Shown here: piece after piece, positions 9,730-35,395 of the stretch
How the letters are laid out: every line of letters begins with the position of its first letter
Numbering within the stretch: position 1 is the stretch's first letter
Source: a virus
Reading direction: 5' to 3' (one strand)
DNA length: 35,410 nt
IMG/VR virus record: IMGVR_UViG_3300000116_000079
Coordinates: 1-35,410 of that record
The notes under the pieces: model-generated
What the model saw: only the letters and a program-made list of their open reading frames with translations
The model's database searches: none
What the model was told of the DNA's origin: nothing
Translations under genes and position numbers: made by a program

Positions 9730-12700
9730 CTATGCGTTAGGGATATTGAGTCCCAACCCATTCAAATTCTCTACTACTTGCTTTGTGATTTCATTTGCGG
9801 CTTGGGTTGTTGTCATTCCCGTAAAGTTATTTGTCATAATAACTTCCGTAGTGTTGATGAGTGTTTCTACGCCCTTGTTCACTACTTGCTTCACCATGTC
9901 TCCTGTGATATTACCTTTACTCATACCAAAGAACATTTCTTCACGAGCGTTGCTAAATTCAAACGCCGCTTCCTTAGCGGCTTCAATCGGCCCAACAAAG
10001 TTTTCTTCAATATCATTTCCTAATTGTTTAAAGGGGTTTACTATGCCTGTGTCCTTTAGTGCTTCATCAACCTTATTCATAAATTCTTCAAAGGTTGCAG
10101 AAGATTTAGCCATTTCTTCAATTGCGCCACGATACTGTTCGGGAATTTGTTTAAATGCTTCTGCCGCAGAAGCCGCCATAGCATCTATGTCATCCTGTGG
10201 CCCTGTCATACCTGCTCCCTTGGTTCCCTCGCCAAAGTTGCCCCCAAGCGTACTTAGATACTGCGCCCCTTGACTGTATCTGTGAAAGAAATTTTCTTCC
10301 GAGAATACCCCTCTTGCATCAAAGGCGTTTTGAGCCGCAGTCGCCGCATCTTCCTCTGCTTGAGCCGCTTTTATTCTGTCATAAATCCCTTCTCCCATAA
10401 TTTGTTGGTCTTGTAGTAATTGAAGTGTCTTAACAGTTTGTATGTCTTGACTTATGGCTAACTCTTCTCTTAGACCTGCTAACTTTTCATCTTGAGCAGT
10501 TTTTAACACACCTTCGGTAGTTATTCGGTTATCTAAAATATCGTTAATTTCTAACTGTGTTCTGTAAGCATAACCCATTACTCCTTGTGGGGTAGAGTAA
10601 ACTGATAATTCTTCGGCCAATGCTTGATAAGATTCTTGCGTATAACTAACGGCTTTATTCATATCGTTAATAGAAAGGGTAGCCATGTCAAATTCGTCTT
10701 TTACATTGGGCATAAGATAATAAATAGCACCCATTACTGCCGCAAGCGTACCTAAAACTATTGTAGTTTTTGATACAATATGAAGTTTTGCGAAAGCGGC
10801 GGTAAGCCCATTAGTGGCGGTAGTCGCACCCGCCATTCCTCCCATCAAGCCCATAGAAGCCTTTGTCATTGTAAACATTTGAATAGTCATTGGAATCATA
10901 GCAAAATTCATCAAAATCATACTTGCTCTTGCCGCTTTAGCATCATCTCTAAACATAGAAAAGCCCATTGACATAGCACCTAAAGTACCCGATAATTGCA
11001 TCATTCTCATATTTAACATCATAGCGGAATTTACTGTTTGCTCTGATTTTTGCGCTACCTTATCTAATGAACCTGTAAACATACCTAATGTTGGGATTAA
11101 CTGTCGTAGCACTTGTTCATCCATTTGATATGCAATTGCTAATTCACGAGCAACCCGTTCCGCTACTTCCATAATAGCAACATTTTGGGTTTCAGTGTTA
11201 GAAAGACCGGCGGTAATTGTTGTCAATTCCACCTTTGCCGCACCTAATATCTTATGTGCTTCGGTGGTTCCATGAACCGCATCAGTATGCGCCATTGTCA
11301 TTAGAATAGCCATACCTTCGGCTTGCATTTGTTCGCTTTCGTATTGAACACCTTGTCTTGCTAACTCAAGTGCTTTTTGTTCTTCTTTAGTTAATAATCC
11401 TGCTAACACTAATCCCCTTTCTTTAAGTGTAACCAGCGTTCTTTCGTTTGTGGCGATATTTCTTTTAACTCTTCCAAGTTGCGCTTGCTGTTTTAATTCA
11501 TCTATGTGAATTTGTGTAGTGTGTTGGGCGGTTTTGTTTTTATCTATTAAAACTTGCAGGTTTCCTTGTTCAAGAGAAATTTCTAAAGAGGTCGCTTTCA
11601 TTTGTCTTTGCTTTGTAGTTAATCGTTGGACTTCAAGCATATGCAATTGTTGTTTCTTTCTAAAAAGACCTACATTGTTTGTTAATTCAAGATTACTCAT
11701 AAAAGTAATATGTTCTTGTTCAGCACCATAGGATTTGTTAAAACTTAACTGCGAGGCTAATATCATCGCTTTTTTTGATTCAGCCGTAGCCTGTTCATTG
11801 ATAAGACCAAGATTGGTTCTCAATTGTGCCGCTTGTCCACCATATGCACTTGCTCGTACTAAGTCTTGTCCCGCAAGGGCGCGTTGAATCTGCACTTGTG
11901 TTTGAAGGGACACAGTAAGGCTCATCATGTTTAGGTTGGCTTCAACAAGGGGAGCGTACATTTTTCCAAACTGTTGAATGGTAAATAGACCATCCATCAT
12001 CGCTCTAATTTCGGGTGAGGTTTCAGCCATTTCCGCTAATGCAAAGTTAAGGTCGGCTTGTGCTTTTGTGGCTTTAACAACGGCGGGGGCTAATAAGTCA
12101 CCAATTGCGGCCTTTGAGTTTTTTAGTCGAGCCTCTTGATGTGTTAATTGGAATGCCGTTTCTTTAAAACGCTTATTCAATTCAGCCTGTGCCGTGTCCA
12201 ATTCATTGACTGCATCGGTTTGTAACTGCATGGTTCGGTTAAATCCTTCCATCAATTTGATAGCACGAACATAGTGGTCGTTTCCGGCCATAGCCTGTGA
12301 AATTTGTAATTGTTGGTCGTTTGATAAAGTGGGATAAATTGTTGATAGGTCGGTAAGAATTTCCTCAAGACTGCGAAGTGAGCCATTAGCGTTCTTAGTT
12401 TCAACACCAAACTTACGAAGGATTTTGGAGTTATTGCCTGTGTCAGCACCAAGACGGGCGTAAATCATTTTAAGCGCACGACCGGCCTTACCTTGTTCTT
12501 CACCGGCTTCAATCAGTGTAGCGGATGCCGCCGCCATAAAGGAAGTTTCGTCACCGGCTAATCTTGCCGACGAAGCGAATTGGTTCATAACATGGGTCAT
12601 TTGGGCCATTGTTGCGGATGAACGGTTTTCAATTGTGTTCAATTGATTGAGCATTTTTACACTTTCGTACCCAACAAGATTTGCTTTTTCTTGTGTACTC

Positions 12701-13284
12701 AATCTGTCAAACTGTGCTTTTGTTAAATCACCATACATAAACTTAGTTTGTTGTTGTAGGGAAATTAACTTCTTCATAGCATCTTCTGTTTCCATACCAC
12801 CAATCAAACCAAACTGAATACCCACTTCGGTAGCGACTCCGGTTGCTTCTCCACCACCAACAATTTGTGATAACTGCGCCATTTTTGCACCTGCGGCAAG
12901 TGCTTGGTCGGCGGCAAACCCGTAGGTTTCACCGATTTCAATTATTCTGTCACCAATTTCTTGTGAGTCAGCAAAGTTAGCAAACTTTTCAAATTCAATA
13001 CGAGCAAATCCAATTTCTTTTGATAGGGGAACGGTACTGTCCACTAACTGTTGCATCTGTTCGCCAATTAACCCTACTCCTTCCGTAATACCGGAAAGAC
13101 CGTCAAGAACCAATCCCTGCAATACAGTAATTTTTGCTTGAGCATCACCAATCAATCGCGTGGCTTGGAACGAGCCGACAACATCAAAGAAAATACGGGA
13201 TGCACCGGCTCGGAGTACGAGCAGGGTTACGGTGGCGAATAAGGCCACTACGGGCATAAGGGAGGTGAACAAATGTGCAATCAC
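9730..13284 (-). CDS. Tail tape measure protein
   Basis: 1184 residues, between the tail assembly chaperone pair and the hub, as in long-tailed viruses. Residues about 90-400 resemble the TP901-type tape measure core: helical, with GDRIIEIGETYGFAADQALAAGAKMAQLS and similar Ala/Gly-rich helices plus an AGRALKMIYARLG segment. There is a hydrophobic N-terminal helix (about 7-28) and a Met/Ala-rich hydrophobic stretch in the second half (about 770-900) that may insert into the host membrane. A long helical coiled-coil middle fits a ruler. At about 0.15 nm per residue it predicts a tail of very roughly 175 nm. The start is GTG at 13284 with GAGAGGG about 9 nt upstream. No lysozyme or peptidase motif was recognised in it. 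Confidence 0.87.
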   Translation of the reverse strand: MIAHLFTSLMPVVALFATVTLLVLRAGASRIFFDVVGSFQATRLIGDAQAKITVLQGLVLDGLSGITEGVGLIGEQMQQLVDSTVPLSKEIGFARIEFEKFANFADSQEIGDRIIEIGETYGFAADQALAAGAKMAQLSQIVGGGEATGVATEVGIQFGLIGGMETEDAMKKLISLQQQTKFMYGDLTKAQFDRLSTQEKANLVGYESVKMLNQLNTIENRSSATMAQMTHVMNQFASSARLAGDETSFMAAASATLIEAGEEQGKAGRALKMIYARLGADTGNNSKILRKFGVETKNANGSLRSLEEILTDLSTIYPTLSNDQQLQISQAMAGNDHYVRAIKLMEGFNRTMQLQTDAVNELDTAQAELNKRFKETAFQLTHQEARLKNSKAAIGDLLAPAVVKATKAQADLNFALAEMAETSPEIRAMMDGLFTIQQFGKMYAPLVEANLNMMSLTVSLQTQVQIQRALAGQDLVRASAYGGQAAQLRTNLGLINEQATAESKKAMILASQLSFNKSYGAEQEHITFMSNLELTNNVGLFRKKQQLHMLEVQRLTTKQRQMKATSLEISLEQGNLQVLIDKNKTAQHTTQIHIDELKQQAQLGRVKRNIATNERTLVTLKERGLVLAGLLTKEEQKALELARQGVQYESEQMQAEGMAILMTMAHTDAVHGTTEAHKILGAAKVELTTITAGLSNTETQNVAIMEVAERVARELAIAYQMDEQVLRQLIPTLGMFTGSLDKVAQKSEQTVNSAMMLNMRMMQLSGTLGAMSMGFSMFRDDAKAARASMILMNFAMIPMTIQMFTMTKASMGLMGGMAGATTATNGLTAAFAKLHIVSKTTIVLGTLAAVMGAIYYLMPNVKDEFDMATLSINDMNKAVSYTQESYQALAEELSVYSTPQGVMGYAYRTQLEINDILDNRITTEGVLKTAQDEKLAGLREELAISQDIQTVKTLQLLQDQQIMGEGIYDRIKAAQAEEDAATAAQNAFDARGVFSEENFFHRYSQGAQYLSTLGGNFGEGTKGAGMTGPQDDIDAMAASAAEAFKQIPEQYRGAIEEMAKSSATFEEFMNKVDEALKDTGIVNPFKQLGNDIEENFVGPIEAAKEAAFEFSNAREEMFFGMSKGNITGDMVKQVVNKGVETLINTTEVIMTNNFTGMTTTQAANEITKQVVENLNGLGLNIPNA

Positions 13285-13298
13285 TACTAAACCCTCTC

Positions 13299-13568
13299 TT
13301 ACTTCGCACTACGCTCTATGGGCAAGCCTAAGCCCTGTAAAAATGCTACACTTTCGGTGTCGTTTAATAATTGGCGTTGCTCTTGCTTTTGTTTGCGACG
13401 AGCCGCCATACCTTTACCGTCAAATTTCTTCTTTGACTTTTGCGTAGCGTCGTTGATTTTATCGGACATATCCATAGCAACCAATAAGTCAATTGTCATT
13501 TGCTCTTGACCGCCTTCGCCGTCGTACCTGTCCCATAATTCCGAGGGGAGCGTTCCCTTATACGCCAT
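13299..13568 (-). CDS. Tail assembly chaperone, frameshift extension (gpT-like)
   Basis: An 89-residue reading frame lying in the -1 frame relative to the upstream chaperone. Rich in Lys, Gln and Arg (KKKFDGKGMAARRKQKQEQRQ), like the T part of lambda gpGT. The ATG at 13568 has no recognisable ribosome site, and its frame stays open back through the slippery heptamer at 13601-13607. The protein is therefore probably made only as a C-terminal extension of the upstream gene. The calculated fusion has 215 residues (115 from the first frame plus 100). It sits directly before the tape measure, the conserved position. It would bind tape measure and tail tube subunits during assembly. Confidence 0.75.
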   Translation of the reverse strand: MAYKGTLPSELWDRYDGEGGQEQMTIDLLVAMDMSDKINDATQKSKKKFDGKGMAARRKQKQEQRQLLNDTESVAFLQGLGLPIERSAK

Positions 13569-31752: not shown

Positions 31753-33009
31753 TCAAAGTTCGCCGTGGTGCATGGTTTCAACCACAAGGCCGAAGCGGTC
31801 TTCTTTGTTTGTTGCATTGACGCACTCAAACCAAGCGGGCTTCAACATGGCCTTGACCCAAACGATTTTGGTTTCTGTGTCGCCGTATTTGTTCACGGTT
31901 TCCATGGTCTTTCGCACTGATACGGGTTTGCTCAGTATGTACTTGAGAGCATCCGAGGCGGTCATGAGTCCTTGAGAGGCAAGCATCAAGCGGTTGAATG
32001 CTGGCTTTCCAAAGCGGAAGGACTTCATCAAAAGGCGGTGTCCTCCGACCATCTTCAAGCCCTCTTCATTTGATTCAATGAAGGGCAGGTGGGCGGTGTT
32101 GGAATTGTACCCAAGGTTGCGCTTTGGGTTTCCGCATTTAGGGCAACCGTTGGCGGCCTGTTGAACGCCGAATTGGTCACCACATGGAGAGCAATATCGG
32201 GCCGTCGGGAACACCGATTTCCTGAACCATTGAATCAAGGTGTGGACATTCACGGTAAGGTGGCTGTTCTCGCTGTAATTCTCAAGGGTGGCGGTTCTCA
32301 AGGTGTGGCTTGATGTGTCAATGAATCCGTTTCCTTCTTCCATGAGTTTGGCCTTCATGCTGTGGAAGGCTTCCCGAAGCATGGCGTGGTTCTCGATTTC
32401 AAAGTAACGAACCGGCGAGCCGACTTCAAGGTTGAATGCGGCGGCGGCGACTGATGGAGTGAGTCTCATTCCTTCGGGGACTTCTTCAACGGCTTGGCCG
32501 GTGCGCTGTTTCATCAATCGGAAGGCCTCTTCATGTTGTGCTGTGCTTGCCTCGTTCCACTGTTGGAAGGCGATGTATGCGGCGGCGGCTCGCTGAAACT
32601 TCTTGGCCGTTTTGGTGTCACTCTTCAACATCTTGGCGATAAGTGGCGATGACATGAGGATTCGTTGCGGTGGTTGTCCATCGTTGAAGTACACGGACAA
32701 ATGAGAGCAACCGGAAACGGTCAAATCATAGCCCATAATTTTCTTTTCATTCACTTGCATGAATTTCGCCATCCGTCCCAATTCTTGATGCTTGACGGCT
32801 TCCTTCTTGAAGGTGTAATTTGCCGCCTTCCTTGTGTTTCGGAGGGTGTTGGTGTTGAACACATAGCCTTCTTCCGTTGTAAGGAAGTTAAGCAAGGTTT
32901 CAACCATGCTTGCTATGATGCCCCGCATCAGTGTTTCGTTCTCTCCTTCCGTGTTTCCACGGAAGGGTTCTTCATTCCCGTTAGGGGTTGTGGTGGTTTC
33001 ATCCGCCAT
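31753..33009 (-). CDS. Zinc-ribbon protein of unknown function (418 aa)
   Basis: Acidic Thr/Asn/Glu-rich N-terminus (about 1-25), then helices including RAAAAYIAFQQW. A zinc ribbon follows at residues 273-292 (YCSPCGDQF, then NGCPKCGNP; cysteines 273, 276, 289, 292). The C-terminal ~110 residues are basic and helical (LLMKSFRFGKPAFNRLMLAS). No family recognised. The gene is visibly richer in GC than the late operon, with many GCG codons. It has its own TATA box 27 nt before ATG 33009 and a hairpin terminator. Lying beside the iterons and TTTAGTCGG arrays, it is the best local candidate for a protein that binds them (origin initiator or regulator), but that is inference. Confidence 0.7.
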   Translation of the reverse strand: MADETTTTPNGNEEPFRGNTEGENETLMRGIIASMVETLLNFLTTEEGYVFNTNTLRNTRKAANYTFKKEAVKHQELGRMAKFMQVNEKKIMGYDLTVSGCSHLSVYFNDGQPPQRILMSSPLIAKMLKSDTKTAKKFQRAAAAYIAFQQWNEASTAQHEEAFRLMKQRTGQAVEEVPEGMRLTPSVAAAAFNLEVGSPVRYFEIENHAMLREAFHSMKAKLMEEGNGFIDTSSHTLRTATLENYSENSHLTVNVHTLIQWFRKSVFPTARYCSPCGDQFGVQQAANGCPKCGNPKRNLGYNSNTAHLPFIESNEEGLKMVGGHRLLMKSFRFGKPAFNRLMLASQGLMTASDALKYILSKPVSVRKTMETVNKYGDTETKIVWVKAMLKPAWFECVNATNKEDRFGLVVETMHHGEL

Positions 33010-33030: not shown

Positions 33031-33040
33031 GCATATAAAG
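33031..33040 (-). promoter_or_regulatory. TATA box of the 418-residue gene
   Basis: CTTTATATGC on the minus strand is centred about 27 nt before ATG 33009, so the transcript would start at the start codon. No ribosome site is visible in between. Same spacing as the other leaderless promoters here. Confidence 0.65.
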
Positions 33041-33397
33041 GAGCAAAGCAGGGCATTCTTTGGTTTATTTAGGCGGTTTTTGGGCTATTTAGGCGGATTT
33101 CATGGGGTTTTTTGGTTCATTTTTTGCCTCTGGGTGATTCGGTTAATTTTTGGGTGAAACAGGCTCGCAGTGTCCCGTTTAGGGTCGTCGATGATTTGAT
33201 TTCTTGAAGGGCTGATTTCGGGCGACCTAACAATTTTGAAGCGGGAGCGATGCACTAAGCCGAAGGGTATATATTCATTTTAATATCGGCCCTTTTAGCA
33301 GGCTTGCAGTACAGCGTTTAGGCTTGAACCCTATCATGAACGGTGTGTTTTTTGCACTGACGATTTTTGAAGGTGAAGTTTACTTGGCTACACTTGG
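33041..33397. other. Intergenic sequence with AT-rich TATA-like site and two GCAGT motifs
   Basis: No convincing gene. It holds GCAGTNNNNCGTTTAG at 33167-33182 and 33306-33321, and an AT-rich stretch GTATATATTCATTTTAATAT near 33267-33287 that could be a promoter or a melting site. The CCTATCATGAACGG 14-mer shared with the gap after terL lies at 33330-33343. Together with the iterons that follow, it may belong to a replication origin. Confidence 0.4.
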
Positions 33398-33469
33398 TTT
33401 CATTTTGGTACTCGGTTTTATTTTTGCACCAAGTTTCATTTTGGTACTTAGTTTCATTTTGATACCAAG
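33398..33469 (+). repeat. Four tandem 18-bp iterons
   Basis: Four head-to-tail 18-bp units (33398-33415, 33416-33433, 33434-33451, 33452-33469) of consensus TTTCATTTTGGTACYNAG. The second unit is the most divergent. Repeats of this type bind replication initiators in many plasmids and viruses. They sit between an AT-rich stretch and the first TTTAGTCGG array. Confidence 0.7.
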
Positions 33470-33487
33470 TGCGGAAAGTAAACTCTG

Positions 33488-33711
33488 TTTAGTCGCGACT
33501 AAAATCTCAGCCCTTGGATTTTTTTAGTCGGTCTTTTTAGTCGGAATAAAAAAGATTTAGTCGGAAAAATTACCGAAAAAAAAAGCGTTTTTTTAGTCGG
33601 AAATTACCGAGTTTAGTCGGTCTTTTTTAGTCGGTAAAAAAAGAAATTTAGTCGGAAATTACCGAAACTTTTAGTCGGATAAATTAGTCGTTAGTCGGAT
33701 AAATTAGTCGG
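33488..33711. repeat. TTTAGTCGG repeat array 1
   Basis: A perfect 16-bp palindrome TTTAGTCGCGACTAAA (33488-33503) is followed by eleven TTTAGTCGG-type sites, all in plus orientation. They start at 33523, 33536, 33556, 33592, 33612, 33626, 33647, 33670, 33683, 33690 and 33703. Spacings are near multiples of 7 (13, 20, 36, 20, 14, 21, 23, 13, 7, 13). Between sites lie T-runs and TCGGAAATTACCGA, itself nearly palindromic. The array ends TTAGTCGGGGGC. Confidence 0.85.
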
Positions 33712-33717
33712 GGGCAT

Positions 33718-33743
33718 CCACCCCCCGCCGAGGCGGGAGGCGG
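33718..33743 (-). terminator. CTCG-capped hairpin after the 33801 gene
   Basis: 11-bp stem on the minus-strand RNA (arms 33733-33743 and 33718-33728, loop CTCG), beginning 57 nt after the gene stop. Two G-U pairs exist only on the minus RNA. No T-run follows directly, but T-rich array sequence comes next. Same design as the hairpins at 31661 and 34738. Confidence 0.6.
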
Positions 33744-33800
33744 TGCGCTGTTCAAGATTGTGTTCAATCCTGTGTTGGTGAAAAATCGACGGGGTGGCGT

Positions 33801-34070
33801 TCAGAGGATAACGCGAGCCACGATGAGGAACCATTCTTGCATGAAGTCTTCGGGCGTGTAGTCTTCGGGCGTTCCCCAATTGTCCGTACCTTCTTTGGTG
33901 CGTAGTGCGTCAAGGGTTACGGTTGCGTGGGCGAGAGCGTCACGGTATGCCTGAACGGGGCCGGTGCGGTCGGGGTGTTGGTAGCCGGTGCATTCAACAT
34001 CGCTGAATTGTCCACAGGCACAAATCCATTCGTATTTTATCATGTGAGGGTTATTGATAGTGAAGCGCAT
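33801..34070 (-). CDS. Small protein with possible zinc-binding cysteines
   Basis: 89 residues from ATG 34070 (MRFTINNPHM); GTG at 34085 or 34079 would extend it by 5 or 3. A WICACGQFSDVECTGYQHPD segment has C-x-C, C and H and may bind metal. The rest is helical and acidic (YRDALAHATVTLDALRTKEG). It follows the 110-residue gene (ending at 34082) with a short gap or overlap depending on the start, and the two probably share one transcript from the TATA box at 34433-34444. Function unknown. Confidence 0.55.
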   Translation of the reverse strand: MRFTINNPHMIKYEWICACGQFSDVECTGYQHPDRTGPVQAYRDALAHATVTLDALRTKEGTDNWGTPEDYTPEDFMQEWFLIVARVIL

Positions 34071-34081
34071 TATTCTCACGC

Positions 34082-34414
34082 TCACATCAAGGATTCAATC
34101 AATTCAAGTGCTTCCGTTTTAGCGTCGCAGTCATACCAATCGTCGCCGGCAATATCTTGAACCAATACATACAATTTTGAAAGTCTGGAACCGTCGATTT
34201 TTTCGGTGATGATGCGTCCAAACATTGTGTTGTGAGCAGGAACGGCGTACTTGGCGTTGATGAGGTGGTGTTGAACCTTAATGAGGTCTTGAATGTCCAC
34301 TTCGTGATGACTGTTGCGAATGACCATATTCATTAGGTCAAGGGCATAGCCAAGGTGCTTCAACGAGGCGGATTCTTCCGCAATAGGGTTGGTTTCGGAG
34401 GGGTTTTGTCCCAT
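34082..34414 (-). CDS. Small helical protein, unknown function
   Basis: 110 residues, mostly helical (SASLKHLGYALDLMNMVIRN, EVDIQDLIKVQHHLINAKYA, RLSKLYVLVQDIAGDDW, TEALELIESLM). No recognised motif. A CTTATATACCTG promoter centred 26 nt before ATG 34414 gives a leaderless transcript. A CGACTAAA site lies exactly 10 bp further upstream. It is the first gene of a two-gene cassette. Confidence 0.6.
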   Translation of the reverse strand: MGQNPSETNPIAEESASLKHLGYALDLMNMVIRNSHHEVDIQDLIKVQHHLINAKYAVPAHNTMFGRIITEKIDGSRLSKLYVLVQDIAGDDWYDCDAKTEALELIESLM

Positions 34415-34432
34415 GATTTATTGTAGGGCTGA

Positions 34433-34444
34433 CAGGTATATAAG
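34433..34444 (-). promoter_or_regulatory. CTTATATACCTG promoter
   Basis: The 12-mer (plus strand CAGGTATATAAG) is identical to the one at 35092-35103. It is centred about 26 nt before ATG 34414. The first repeat site, GCGACTAAA at 34455-34463, begins 10 nt beyond it. A bound factor there would sit next to the BRE/TATA site, where archaeal activators or repressors act. Confidence 0.72.
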
Positions 34445-34454
34445 CGGTACTGCG

Positions 34455-34735
34455 GCGACTAAACAGGAATCCGACTAAAGGAGTTTAGTCGGAAGGGGCC
34501 AAGTATAGTCTTTTAGTCGCGACTAACTGATAGGGGTTGCGTGGTGCGTTTAGTCGGAATTTTTAGGCGCGCCTAATCTTACCCCTACTTTTCGTGGAAA
34601 TTATTTAGTCGGAATATTTAGTCGTTAGTCGGGGCAGTTTAGTCGGACTTTTTTAGTCGGAAAAAAGAAAATTTAGTCGGAAAAATTACCTAAAGAAAAA
34701 AGAAAATTTAGTCGGAAGTTACCGAGTTTAGTCGG
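34455..34735. repeat. TTTAGTCGG repeat array 2
   Basis: Two reverse sites near the promoter (34455-34463, 34471-34479) come first, then forward sites starting 34484, 34549, 34604, 34617, 34624, 34638, 34652, 34672, 34707 and 34727. Two palindromes are included: TTAGTCGCGACTAA (34513-34526) and TTAGGCGCGCCTAA (34563-34576). The array ends TTTAGTCGGGGGC, the same boundary as array 1, directly against a hairpin. Confidence 0.85.
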
Positions 34736-34737
34736 GG

Positions 34738-34769
34738 GCCACCGCGCCCTCCGAGGAAGACGCGGCGGC
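34738..34769 (-). terminator. CTCG-capped hairpin after the 34823 gene
   Basis: 14-bp stem on the minus RNA (arms 34756-34769 and 34738-34751, loop CTCG) with three G-U pairs, beginning 53 nt after the gene stop. It is followed on the minus strand by T-rich array sequence (TTTTCTTTTTTC). Same design as the hairpins at 31661 and 33718. Confidence 0.65.
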
Positions 34770-34822
34770 GTTGGTACGAGCCGTGACCGTTCGCATTTTG
34801 TGTCCTAACATCGTCGATTTTT

Positions 34823-35062
34823 TTAACCGTCAAGGTAGTTATCAATTAGTGCCGCCGTAAGTGCGGGCCACTTCATTGCGAACTCCAACGGGTTGCGTTG
34901 CATCATGTTGAATTGGTCACCAACATAGCCGCTAAGTTCGTGCGCTGTACCTCCATTTTGATACAGTTTGTTATATGCCGCTACGAATGTTTCTCCATCC
35001 GTCCATGTTGCAGTGTGGTACAATGCTTTGTACGCCGCCGTTATTTCTTCTTGTGTTTTCAT
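34823..35062 (-). CDS. Small protein, unknown function
   Basis: 79 residues, MKTQEEITAAYKALYHTATW at the start. Helical and aromatic-rich with repeated A-x-Y-x-x-L-Y features (TAAYKALYH, VAAYNKLYQ) and a QRNPLEFAMKWPALTAALI end. GAGGTGA lies 4 nt before ATG 35062, and the TATA box lies further upstream, giving a 10-nt leader. No family recognised. Single-gene cassette between two repeat arrays. Confidence 0.6.
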   Translation of the reverse strand: MKTQEEITAAYKALYHTATWTDGETFVAAYNKLYQNGGTAHELSGYVGDQFNMMQRNPLEFAMKWPALTAALIDNYLDG

Positions 35063-35091
35063 CTTTTCACCTCAATATATCGTAGAGGGTG

Positions 35092-35103
35092 CAGGTATAT
35101 AAG
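35092..35103 (-). promoter_or_regulatory. CTTATATACCTG promoter
   Basis: Identical 12-mer to the promoter at 34433-34444, centred about 37 nt before ATG 35062. CCGACTAAA (35114-35122) begins 10 nt upstream of it, exactly as in the other cassette. The 10-nt gaps themselves differ in sequence, so spacing rather than sequence is conserved. Confidence 0.72.
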
Positions 35104-35113
35104 GCTGTCTACG

Positions 35114-35395
35114 CCGACTAAACGGGCATTTTCAGTTTGTATTATTATTTAGTCGTGACTAATTAGGCGGCGTTATTATTGTTTTTTAGTCGGAATAGGC
35201 TGTTTTGGGGCGTTTAGTCGCGCCTAATTTATGGGGTCGCAGTCACGCGTTTAGTCGGAATTTTTTTGGGAAGCGGCGCGAATGTAGCATAGGAGGCAAT
35301 CGGATTTTTTTTCCGCCTAAACAAGAGTAGAGAGGCAGTTTTTTAGTCGGGGGCGACCGACTAAATTATCATAACGCAGTCACGCGTTTAGTCGG
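35114..35395. repeat. TTTAGTCGG repeat array 3 (runs toward the window end)
   Basis: Sites include CCGACTAAA 35114-35122, the near-palindrome TTAGTCGTGACTAA (35149-35162), forward sites starting 35185, 35250, 35342 and 35387, and a mixed palindrome TTTAGTCGCGCCTAA (35213-35227). Reverse sites lie at 35313-35321 (CCGCCTAAA) and 35357-35365. CGCAGTCACGCGTTTAGTCGGAAT (24 nt, partly quoted) is duplicated at 35238-35261 and 35375-35398. No gene is seen in the last 348 bases. Confidence 0.8.

Follow-up and report, generated by a model that had tools for sequence, protein, structure and literature searches.

Dense virus-specific repeats in a family of marine, probably archaeal viruses as candidate operator sites of a putative zinc-ribbon regulator

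The short repeats crowding the right end of the viral genome studied here are best read as operators at which a sequence-specific regulator, encoded by the virus itself, would control early transcription, each virus lineage using a private word; we place the probability of this reading at about 0.6. The sites are most likely bound by a 418-aa zinc-ribbon protein encoded beside the arrays (hereafter P418), or by a partner evolving with it, which would thereby control early transcription. The virus belongs to a family of uncultured marine viruses that probably infect archaea. To our knowledge, next to nothing has been learned about how viruses of such archaea regulate their genes, and a literature search found no paper describing these repeats. 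Their interest lies in a cis code that can be read directly from the sequence, an explicit promoter geometry and a single protein family as the natural suspect.

The window, i.e., the whole stretch of DNA analysed, is one virus record of IMG/VR (35,410 bases). Its left end carries two nuclease genes (PD-(D/E)XK and ERCC4) and an uncharacterised gene, followed by a long leftward late operon that includes the portal gene, and then by rightward genes including that for the terminase. The last 3.7 kb hold the leftward P418 gene and three small leftward genes (94, 110 and 79 aa), with repeats filling the gaps:

31753-33009 (-): gene for P418, the candidate site-binding zinc-ribbon regulator, of no known family; it adjoins the arrays in relatives
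33033-33039 (-): TATA-like box TTTATAT of the P418 gene, read from the sequence about 24 bp before the ATG
33069-33096 (+): two TTAGGCGG sites (isolated TTTAGGCG copies; TTAGGCG starts at 33069 and 33089), 20 bp apart, upstream of the P418 gene and its TATA box
33488-33711 (+): array 1, 13 sites, 12 in + orientation and one - in the palindrome 33489-33502; its end is TTAGTCGGGGGC
33714-33746 (-): terminator-like hairpin past the stop codon of the 94-aa gene
33801-34085 (-): small leftward gene, 94 aa, without family
34082-34414 (-): small leftward gene, 110 aa, without family
34437-34443 (-): TATA box TTATATA of the 110/94-aa operon
34456-34462 (-): promoter-slot site of that operon, 12 bp upstream of its TATA box and in the promoter's orientation
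34472: second site near the same promoter, 28 bp upstream of the TATA box
34456-34735 (+): array 2, 16 sites including the palindromes 34513-34526 and 34563-34576; the + run ends in TTAGTCGGGGGC
34738-34769 (-): terminator-like hairpin past the 79-aa gene
34823-35062 (-): small leftward gene, 79 aa, without family
35096-35102 (-): TATA box TTATATA of the 79-aa gene
35115-35121 (-): promoter-slot site of the 79-aa gene, 12 bp upstream of its TATA box
35115-35394: array 3, the left end of a divergent control region, 11 sites in both orientations; the window stops inside it
35221-35257, 35314-35349 and 35358-35394: outward pairs of array 3, with gaps of 22-23 bp

A preliminary description of this DNA had claimed a dense system of TTTAG(T/G)CG repeats, and a count bears this out, with 37 copies observed in the window against 2.4 expected (28 against 0.8 for TTAGTCGG). 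The core TTAG(T/G)CG occurs 42 times in 33.0-35.4 kb as against 6 times in the remaining 33 kb, and none of the 42 falls inside the four genes of that region; an equal density throughout coding sequence was thus not seen. The three intergenic arrays, their palindromes and their TTAGTCGGGGGC ends (at 33704, 34728 and 35343) are as had been described. The hairpins flanking arrays 1 and 2 are strong (-29 and -30 kcal/mol, z ~ -3.5). Arrays 1 and 2 each begin right past such a hairpin, downstream of the stop codon of a leftward gene, and array 2 extends as far as the TATA promoter of the next operon. The site runs point rightward, opposing the leftward transcription, with the minus-strand sites being either palindromes or promoter sites. 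The proposed underlying 7-bp unit, by contrast, is weak: the observed spacings (7, 13-14, 20-21, 28 and 35-37) are matched better by a helical-turn period, of about 21 or of 10.5-11 bp. A CRISPR array, which needs near-identical repeats and unique spacers of similar length, had already been discounted and is rejected here too, given a 7-9-bp word found on both strands at start-to-start spacings from 7 to more than 40 bp. Separately, about four 18-bp tandem repeats (TTTCATTTTGGTAC...) lie upstream of the P418 gene at 33392-33470 of the window; they are partly retained in one relative (L012) and missing from another (L006).

The relationship between the sites and promoters was assessed in 23 representative records, which furnished 34 non-redundant TTATATA boxes with a site within 300 bp. 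A site in the same orientation ends 11-13 or 22-24 bp upstream of the box in 24 of these 34, and a site in the reverse orientation does so in 2; jittered controls for slot occupancy averaged 1.0 and reached a maximum of 5 across 2000 jitters. The two slots lie one helical turn apart, and one or both are used depending on the clade. Both small-gene promoters of the window show the 12-bp spacing, and five right-arm promoters of a long contig (G003) carry sites in the slots 22 and 11 bp upstream, in the layout TTAGTCG-N4-TTAGTCG-N11-TATA. In the long contigs the sites occupy a control region of 2-4 kb and the promoters of the early arm; where the control region is present on the contig, the exact word has 26-74 copies. 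Outside that region in G003, G001 and G002, the remaining sites are mostly at early-arm promoters and none were found at the late-operon promoters, which agrees with the earlier claim that the late operon lacks them. About one in two TTATATA boxes on the G003 early arm lacks a site, and most site copies have no TATA box nearby. The promoter of the P418 gene itself differs in that its TATA box often has a site, at times a reversed one, at a distance of 1-10 bp, and in that it carries a conserved upstream element; because of this TATA-close site and element, we infer that P418 may regulate its own gene. The element upstream of the P418 homologue in L018, L022, L029, L034 and L053 is often AATTTCAAG or ATTTCATGG.

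The full divergent control region, in which the window breaks off, is visible in the relatives L036, L051 and L053. Between the divergent operons about 1 kb is free of genes. The arrays in the leftward gaps are almost entirely in + orientation and the central region is mixed. Counts of pair spacings over fourteen records show that, among some 150 outward pairs (CGACTAA-N-TTAGTCG), 60 are separated by exactly 23 bp and 102 by 21-24 bp, and that inward pairs favor gaps of 0 (the palindrome, 58 cases), 28 and 55-56 bp. The 23-bp interval often contains another conserved element (GCAGTnACGCG or, in reverse complement, ACTGCGAGC), which is possibly the site of a second factor. It can be seen between outward pairs at L036:7430-8200, L051:4200-4850, L098:7200-7700 and 35221-35394 of the window. 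The product of the first rightward gene past the control region (L036:8600-8770; L051:5285-5445) is a zinc-ribbon protein, conserved and some 50 aa long.

Comparison with close relatives indicates that the sites are selectively kept. In the alignment of the window with L012, identity is 99.3% over the site bases (294 bp) and 75% over the remaining 1823 aligned bases, where gaps are numerous; in that with L006, the sites are 98.4% identical and the remainder 81%. The repeats look like the binding sites of a sequence-specific factor. The preliminary description had made the conservation of the arrays in close relatives a test of their meaning: they are indeed retained, with changed words. One word dominates the copies within each genome; between genomes the words differ, with the closer relatives displaying TTTAGTCGG, GTTAGTCG, CTTAGTCG, ATTAGTCG, GTTAGACGa, GTTAGCCGa and AATAGTCGC. 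In relatives with a terminase near 60% identical, the layout is unchanged and the words are different again (GGTTACAAAAAC, ATGCTACAAAT and TCACGGCCAAAA). By record, these dialects are:

TTTAGTCGg: the window, L006, L012
GTTAGTCG: L036
CTTAGTCG: L029, L028, L022
ATTAGTCG: L098, L096
GTTAGACGa: L020, L052
GTTAGCCGa: L027
AATAGTCGC: L053, L038
GGTTACAAAAAC: L159, with 65 copies of GTTACAA; the distance between site and TATA box is 8 bp
ATGCTACAAAT: L169, where three promoters have the site 6 bp away from their TATA box
TCACGGCCAAAA: L153

At aligned positions, the TTAGACG of L020 stands opposite the TTAGCCG of L027. Two further observations were made: in L159 (11770-12580) the GGTTACAAAAAC sites appear to enter the coding sequence of small genes, such that site gain may override protein sequence, and in L170 (8751-9623) a terminase-adjacent CxxC protein of 290 aa lies on the + strand, the array word being GGACAAAA. 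The promoter spacing, the outward pairs with their 23-bp gap and the change of words between relatives all lay beyond the view of the preliminary description, which had taken the repeats to be either stoperator-like or enhancer-like binding sites of a viral factor or an origin; the proposal of binding sites now appears well supported, because the sites are conserved, their promoter geometry is fixed and the word follows the tree of the neighboring P418.

P418, which had already been named as a protein to be tested for binding, is now the best candidate for the binder. Relatives whose arrays are of the TTAG or the ATAG type carry a homologue next to the terminase. In L027 the homologue was found on the other strand: a 527-aa open frame (11852-13435, +), which is probably an artefact of GC-rich sequence, runs antisense over it (11870-13159, -) and masked the real gene in longest-ORF calling. 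When 53 newly fetched loci were scanned by motif only, all 11 with at least 49 sites encoded a homologue, as did 4 further loci with 9-18 sites, and the 38 loci without a homologue had 3-16 sites. Relatives without arrays (the L160 and L157 groups) have no ORF of the size of P418 at the locus; in the arrayless L157 (3281-3616) and L168 (10425-10736), a small zinc-ribbon protein of 103-111 aa near the terminase replaces the large one. A regular-expression test of zinc-ribbon ORFs against array presence was discarded, having missed real homologues. P418 is the most divergent of the 38-42 reciprocal-best orthologues in three genome pairs, with an identity of 22-27% where that of the terminase is 78-86%. 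The word groups correspond to clades in the P418 tree (100/100 for the C-dialect). AU tests on the terminase tree reject two of them, that of the C-word (p-AU 3e-5) and that of GTTAG(A/C)CG (p-AU 0.016), these groups having been picked once the trees were seen; by parsimony, either tree calls for a similar number of word changes (5 versus 6, and 7 versus 7). As the P418 gene adjoins the arrays, linkage alone could account for part of this co-inheritance.

The P418 family has a zinc ribbon and no recognized fold. Profile searches of Pfam, PHROGs and PDB returned nothing significant and no recognized DNA-binding domain, and neither the full model nor the N-terminal domain (pLDDT 88.6) matched anything convincingly in Foldseek and VIA-align searches; a winged helix considered for the N-terminal helices is accordingly unsupported. 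The C-terminal part weakly resembles single-strand DNA-binding proteins of the OB-fold (OB-fold/MCM-N/SSB). The family is too divergent for its whole-family alignment to serve in scanning, and the proteins beside the most distant words align to it over the zinc ribbon only, so that homology across those words derives from a match of 45 columns.

We picture the operation of such a system as follows. Seated in the promoter slot, P418 would touch the TBP/TFB machinery and thereby switch the early genes, and the TATA-close site at its own promoter would provide feedback. The strict spacing from the TATA box, in suggesting contact with TBP/TFB, slightly favors activation at the slot, with repression being possible. 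The + runs past each terminator-like hairpin, which face the incoming leftward polymerase, may act as roadblocks or insulators, and the dense control region as an enhancer-like or origin-like hub; an origin function of this hub would be compatible with the picture. Since a regulator of this kind would act in trans on any virus sharing the cell, word and protein would be expected to change together, and the dialects might be comparable to heteroimmune phage groups. The family would then offer a natural experiment in the co-evolution of a regulator and its sites, with dozens of sites rewritten while the terminase is still about 88% identical, and the words might serve to tell apart the interference groups of viruses that coexist. 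A bolder version, which we advance as a tentative possibility, is that of an archaeal tailed-virus family with private operator codes, wherein a fast-evolving zinc-ribbon protein of a new DNA-binding class reads a 7-12-bp word in 40-70 copies and serves as a master switch at the promoter slot, in the roadblock arrays and possibly at the origin, with repeated whole-genome word switches giving rise to mutually blind immunity or interference groups.

The host is probably a member of the Poseidoniales, because the gene set of the relative G003 (PolB, an RFC-like AAA protein and a GroEL-type chaperonin, Cpn60) and the promoters, which are of the archaeal TATA type with short leaders, are consistent with magroviruses, the viruses of Poseidoniales, which are thought to be lytic (PMC10768690). 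A search of GTDB genomes for terminase relatives that might name the host found none. A rival reading is that a host transcription factor binds the sites, with each dialect marking a different host lineage. Archaeal viruses commonly use the TBP, TFB and RNA polymerase of their hosts, and two contigs with different dialects (L036 and L097) come under one IMG sample number, perhaps a sign that their hosts differ. However, the words track a viral gene rather than the structural backbone, and this reading fits less well on that account; wholly different 8-12-bp words within one virus family also better suit a fast-changing viral protein. Moreover, no Poseidoniales genome is among the matches listed in a triple-site scan of GTDB, which are almost all bacterial with one to three each and look like chance or tandem repeats. 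We therefore hold a host factor to be very unlikely.

That the dense control region is primarily a replication origin, at which an initiator would bind iteron-like sites and from which that protein would have been put to secondary use at promoters, we judge unlikely, even as several features point that way: the gene-free kilobase between divergent operons with its ordered outward pairs, palindromes and GCAGTnACGCG element, the PolB and RFC-like AAA protein encoded by relatives, and the weak resemblance of the P418 C-terminal part to OB-fold proteins. Against it, single or paired sites recur at promoters many kilobases away at a fixed spacing from the TATA box, and arrays also fill the ordinary gaps between small genes; the cumulative GC skew tracks the gene strand and is not diagnostic. 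Strict stoperators, i.e., repressor-based superinfection immunity with the virus silenced in a carrier state, appear distinctly unlikely: the number and asymmetry of the sites, their main orientation in the leftward gaps, the virus-specific words and the link to one protein all match cluster A phages, but there is no integrase among the 20 early-arm proteins of G003 scanned, viruses of the magrovirus type are thought lytic (PMC10768690) and the fixed TATA spacing is not described for stoperators. Finally, functionless selfish or mutational repeats (MITE-like elements or slippage) can hardly be the explanation. The high copy number and the sites that appear to enter coding sequence in L159 would suit them, but only the 7-9-bp word is common to the copies, with no longer unit, and the conservation of the sites while their flanks drift, along with the fixed TATA spacing, contradicts them. 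An operator system read by a viral regulator accommodates these observations best.

Among known systems, iteron origins likewise have clustered direct and inverted short repeats beside the gene of a candidate binder, but in the window's family there are promoter-locked sites far from the cluster and no initiator family is recognized. The nearest archaeal precedent is the tailed halovirus HF2, which has intergenic repeats tied to early-middle promoters, for which its authors suggest virus-encoded sequence-specific factors, possibly CxxC proteins (PMC8707807). The HF2 repeats (seven of class I and two of class II) are 29-58 bp long, include both TATA box and start site, and are found at late genes as well (PMC8707807). 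In contrast, the window's family has a unit of 7-12 bp, repeated dozens of times and with virus-specific words. Promoter repeats of the HF2 type were rejected, as the unit (7-9 bp) sits upstream of the TATA box and most copies have no such box nearby. The stoperators of cluster A mycobacteriophages (L5, Bxb1, Trixie) are many short asymmetric sites, mainly in one orientation, whose consensus differs between related phages, whose word distance correlates with the distance of one regulator and of which one is present at the regulator's own promoter (PMC6550527). Site number, asymmetry, word variation, the link to one regulator and the site at its promoter are thus common to both. Where stoperators comprise 20-30 or more short asymmetric sites, the window region has 42 and the long contigs 26-74 of the exact word, and the consensus follows P418 clades that the terminase tree rejects, subject to the linkage of gene and arrays. 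Unlike in stoperators, the 40-70 sites are concentrated in one control region and at early promoters, are locked to archaeal-type TATA boxes and include palindromes and 23-bp outward pairs; the words change completely, and the candidate binder is an unrelated zinc-ribbon protein. Hence, we claim membership neither in the stoperators nor in the HF2 repeats, and regard the site system as one that appears to resemble the mycobacteriophage stoperators.
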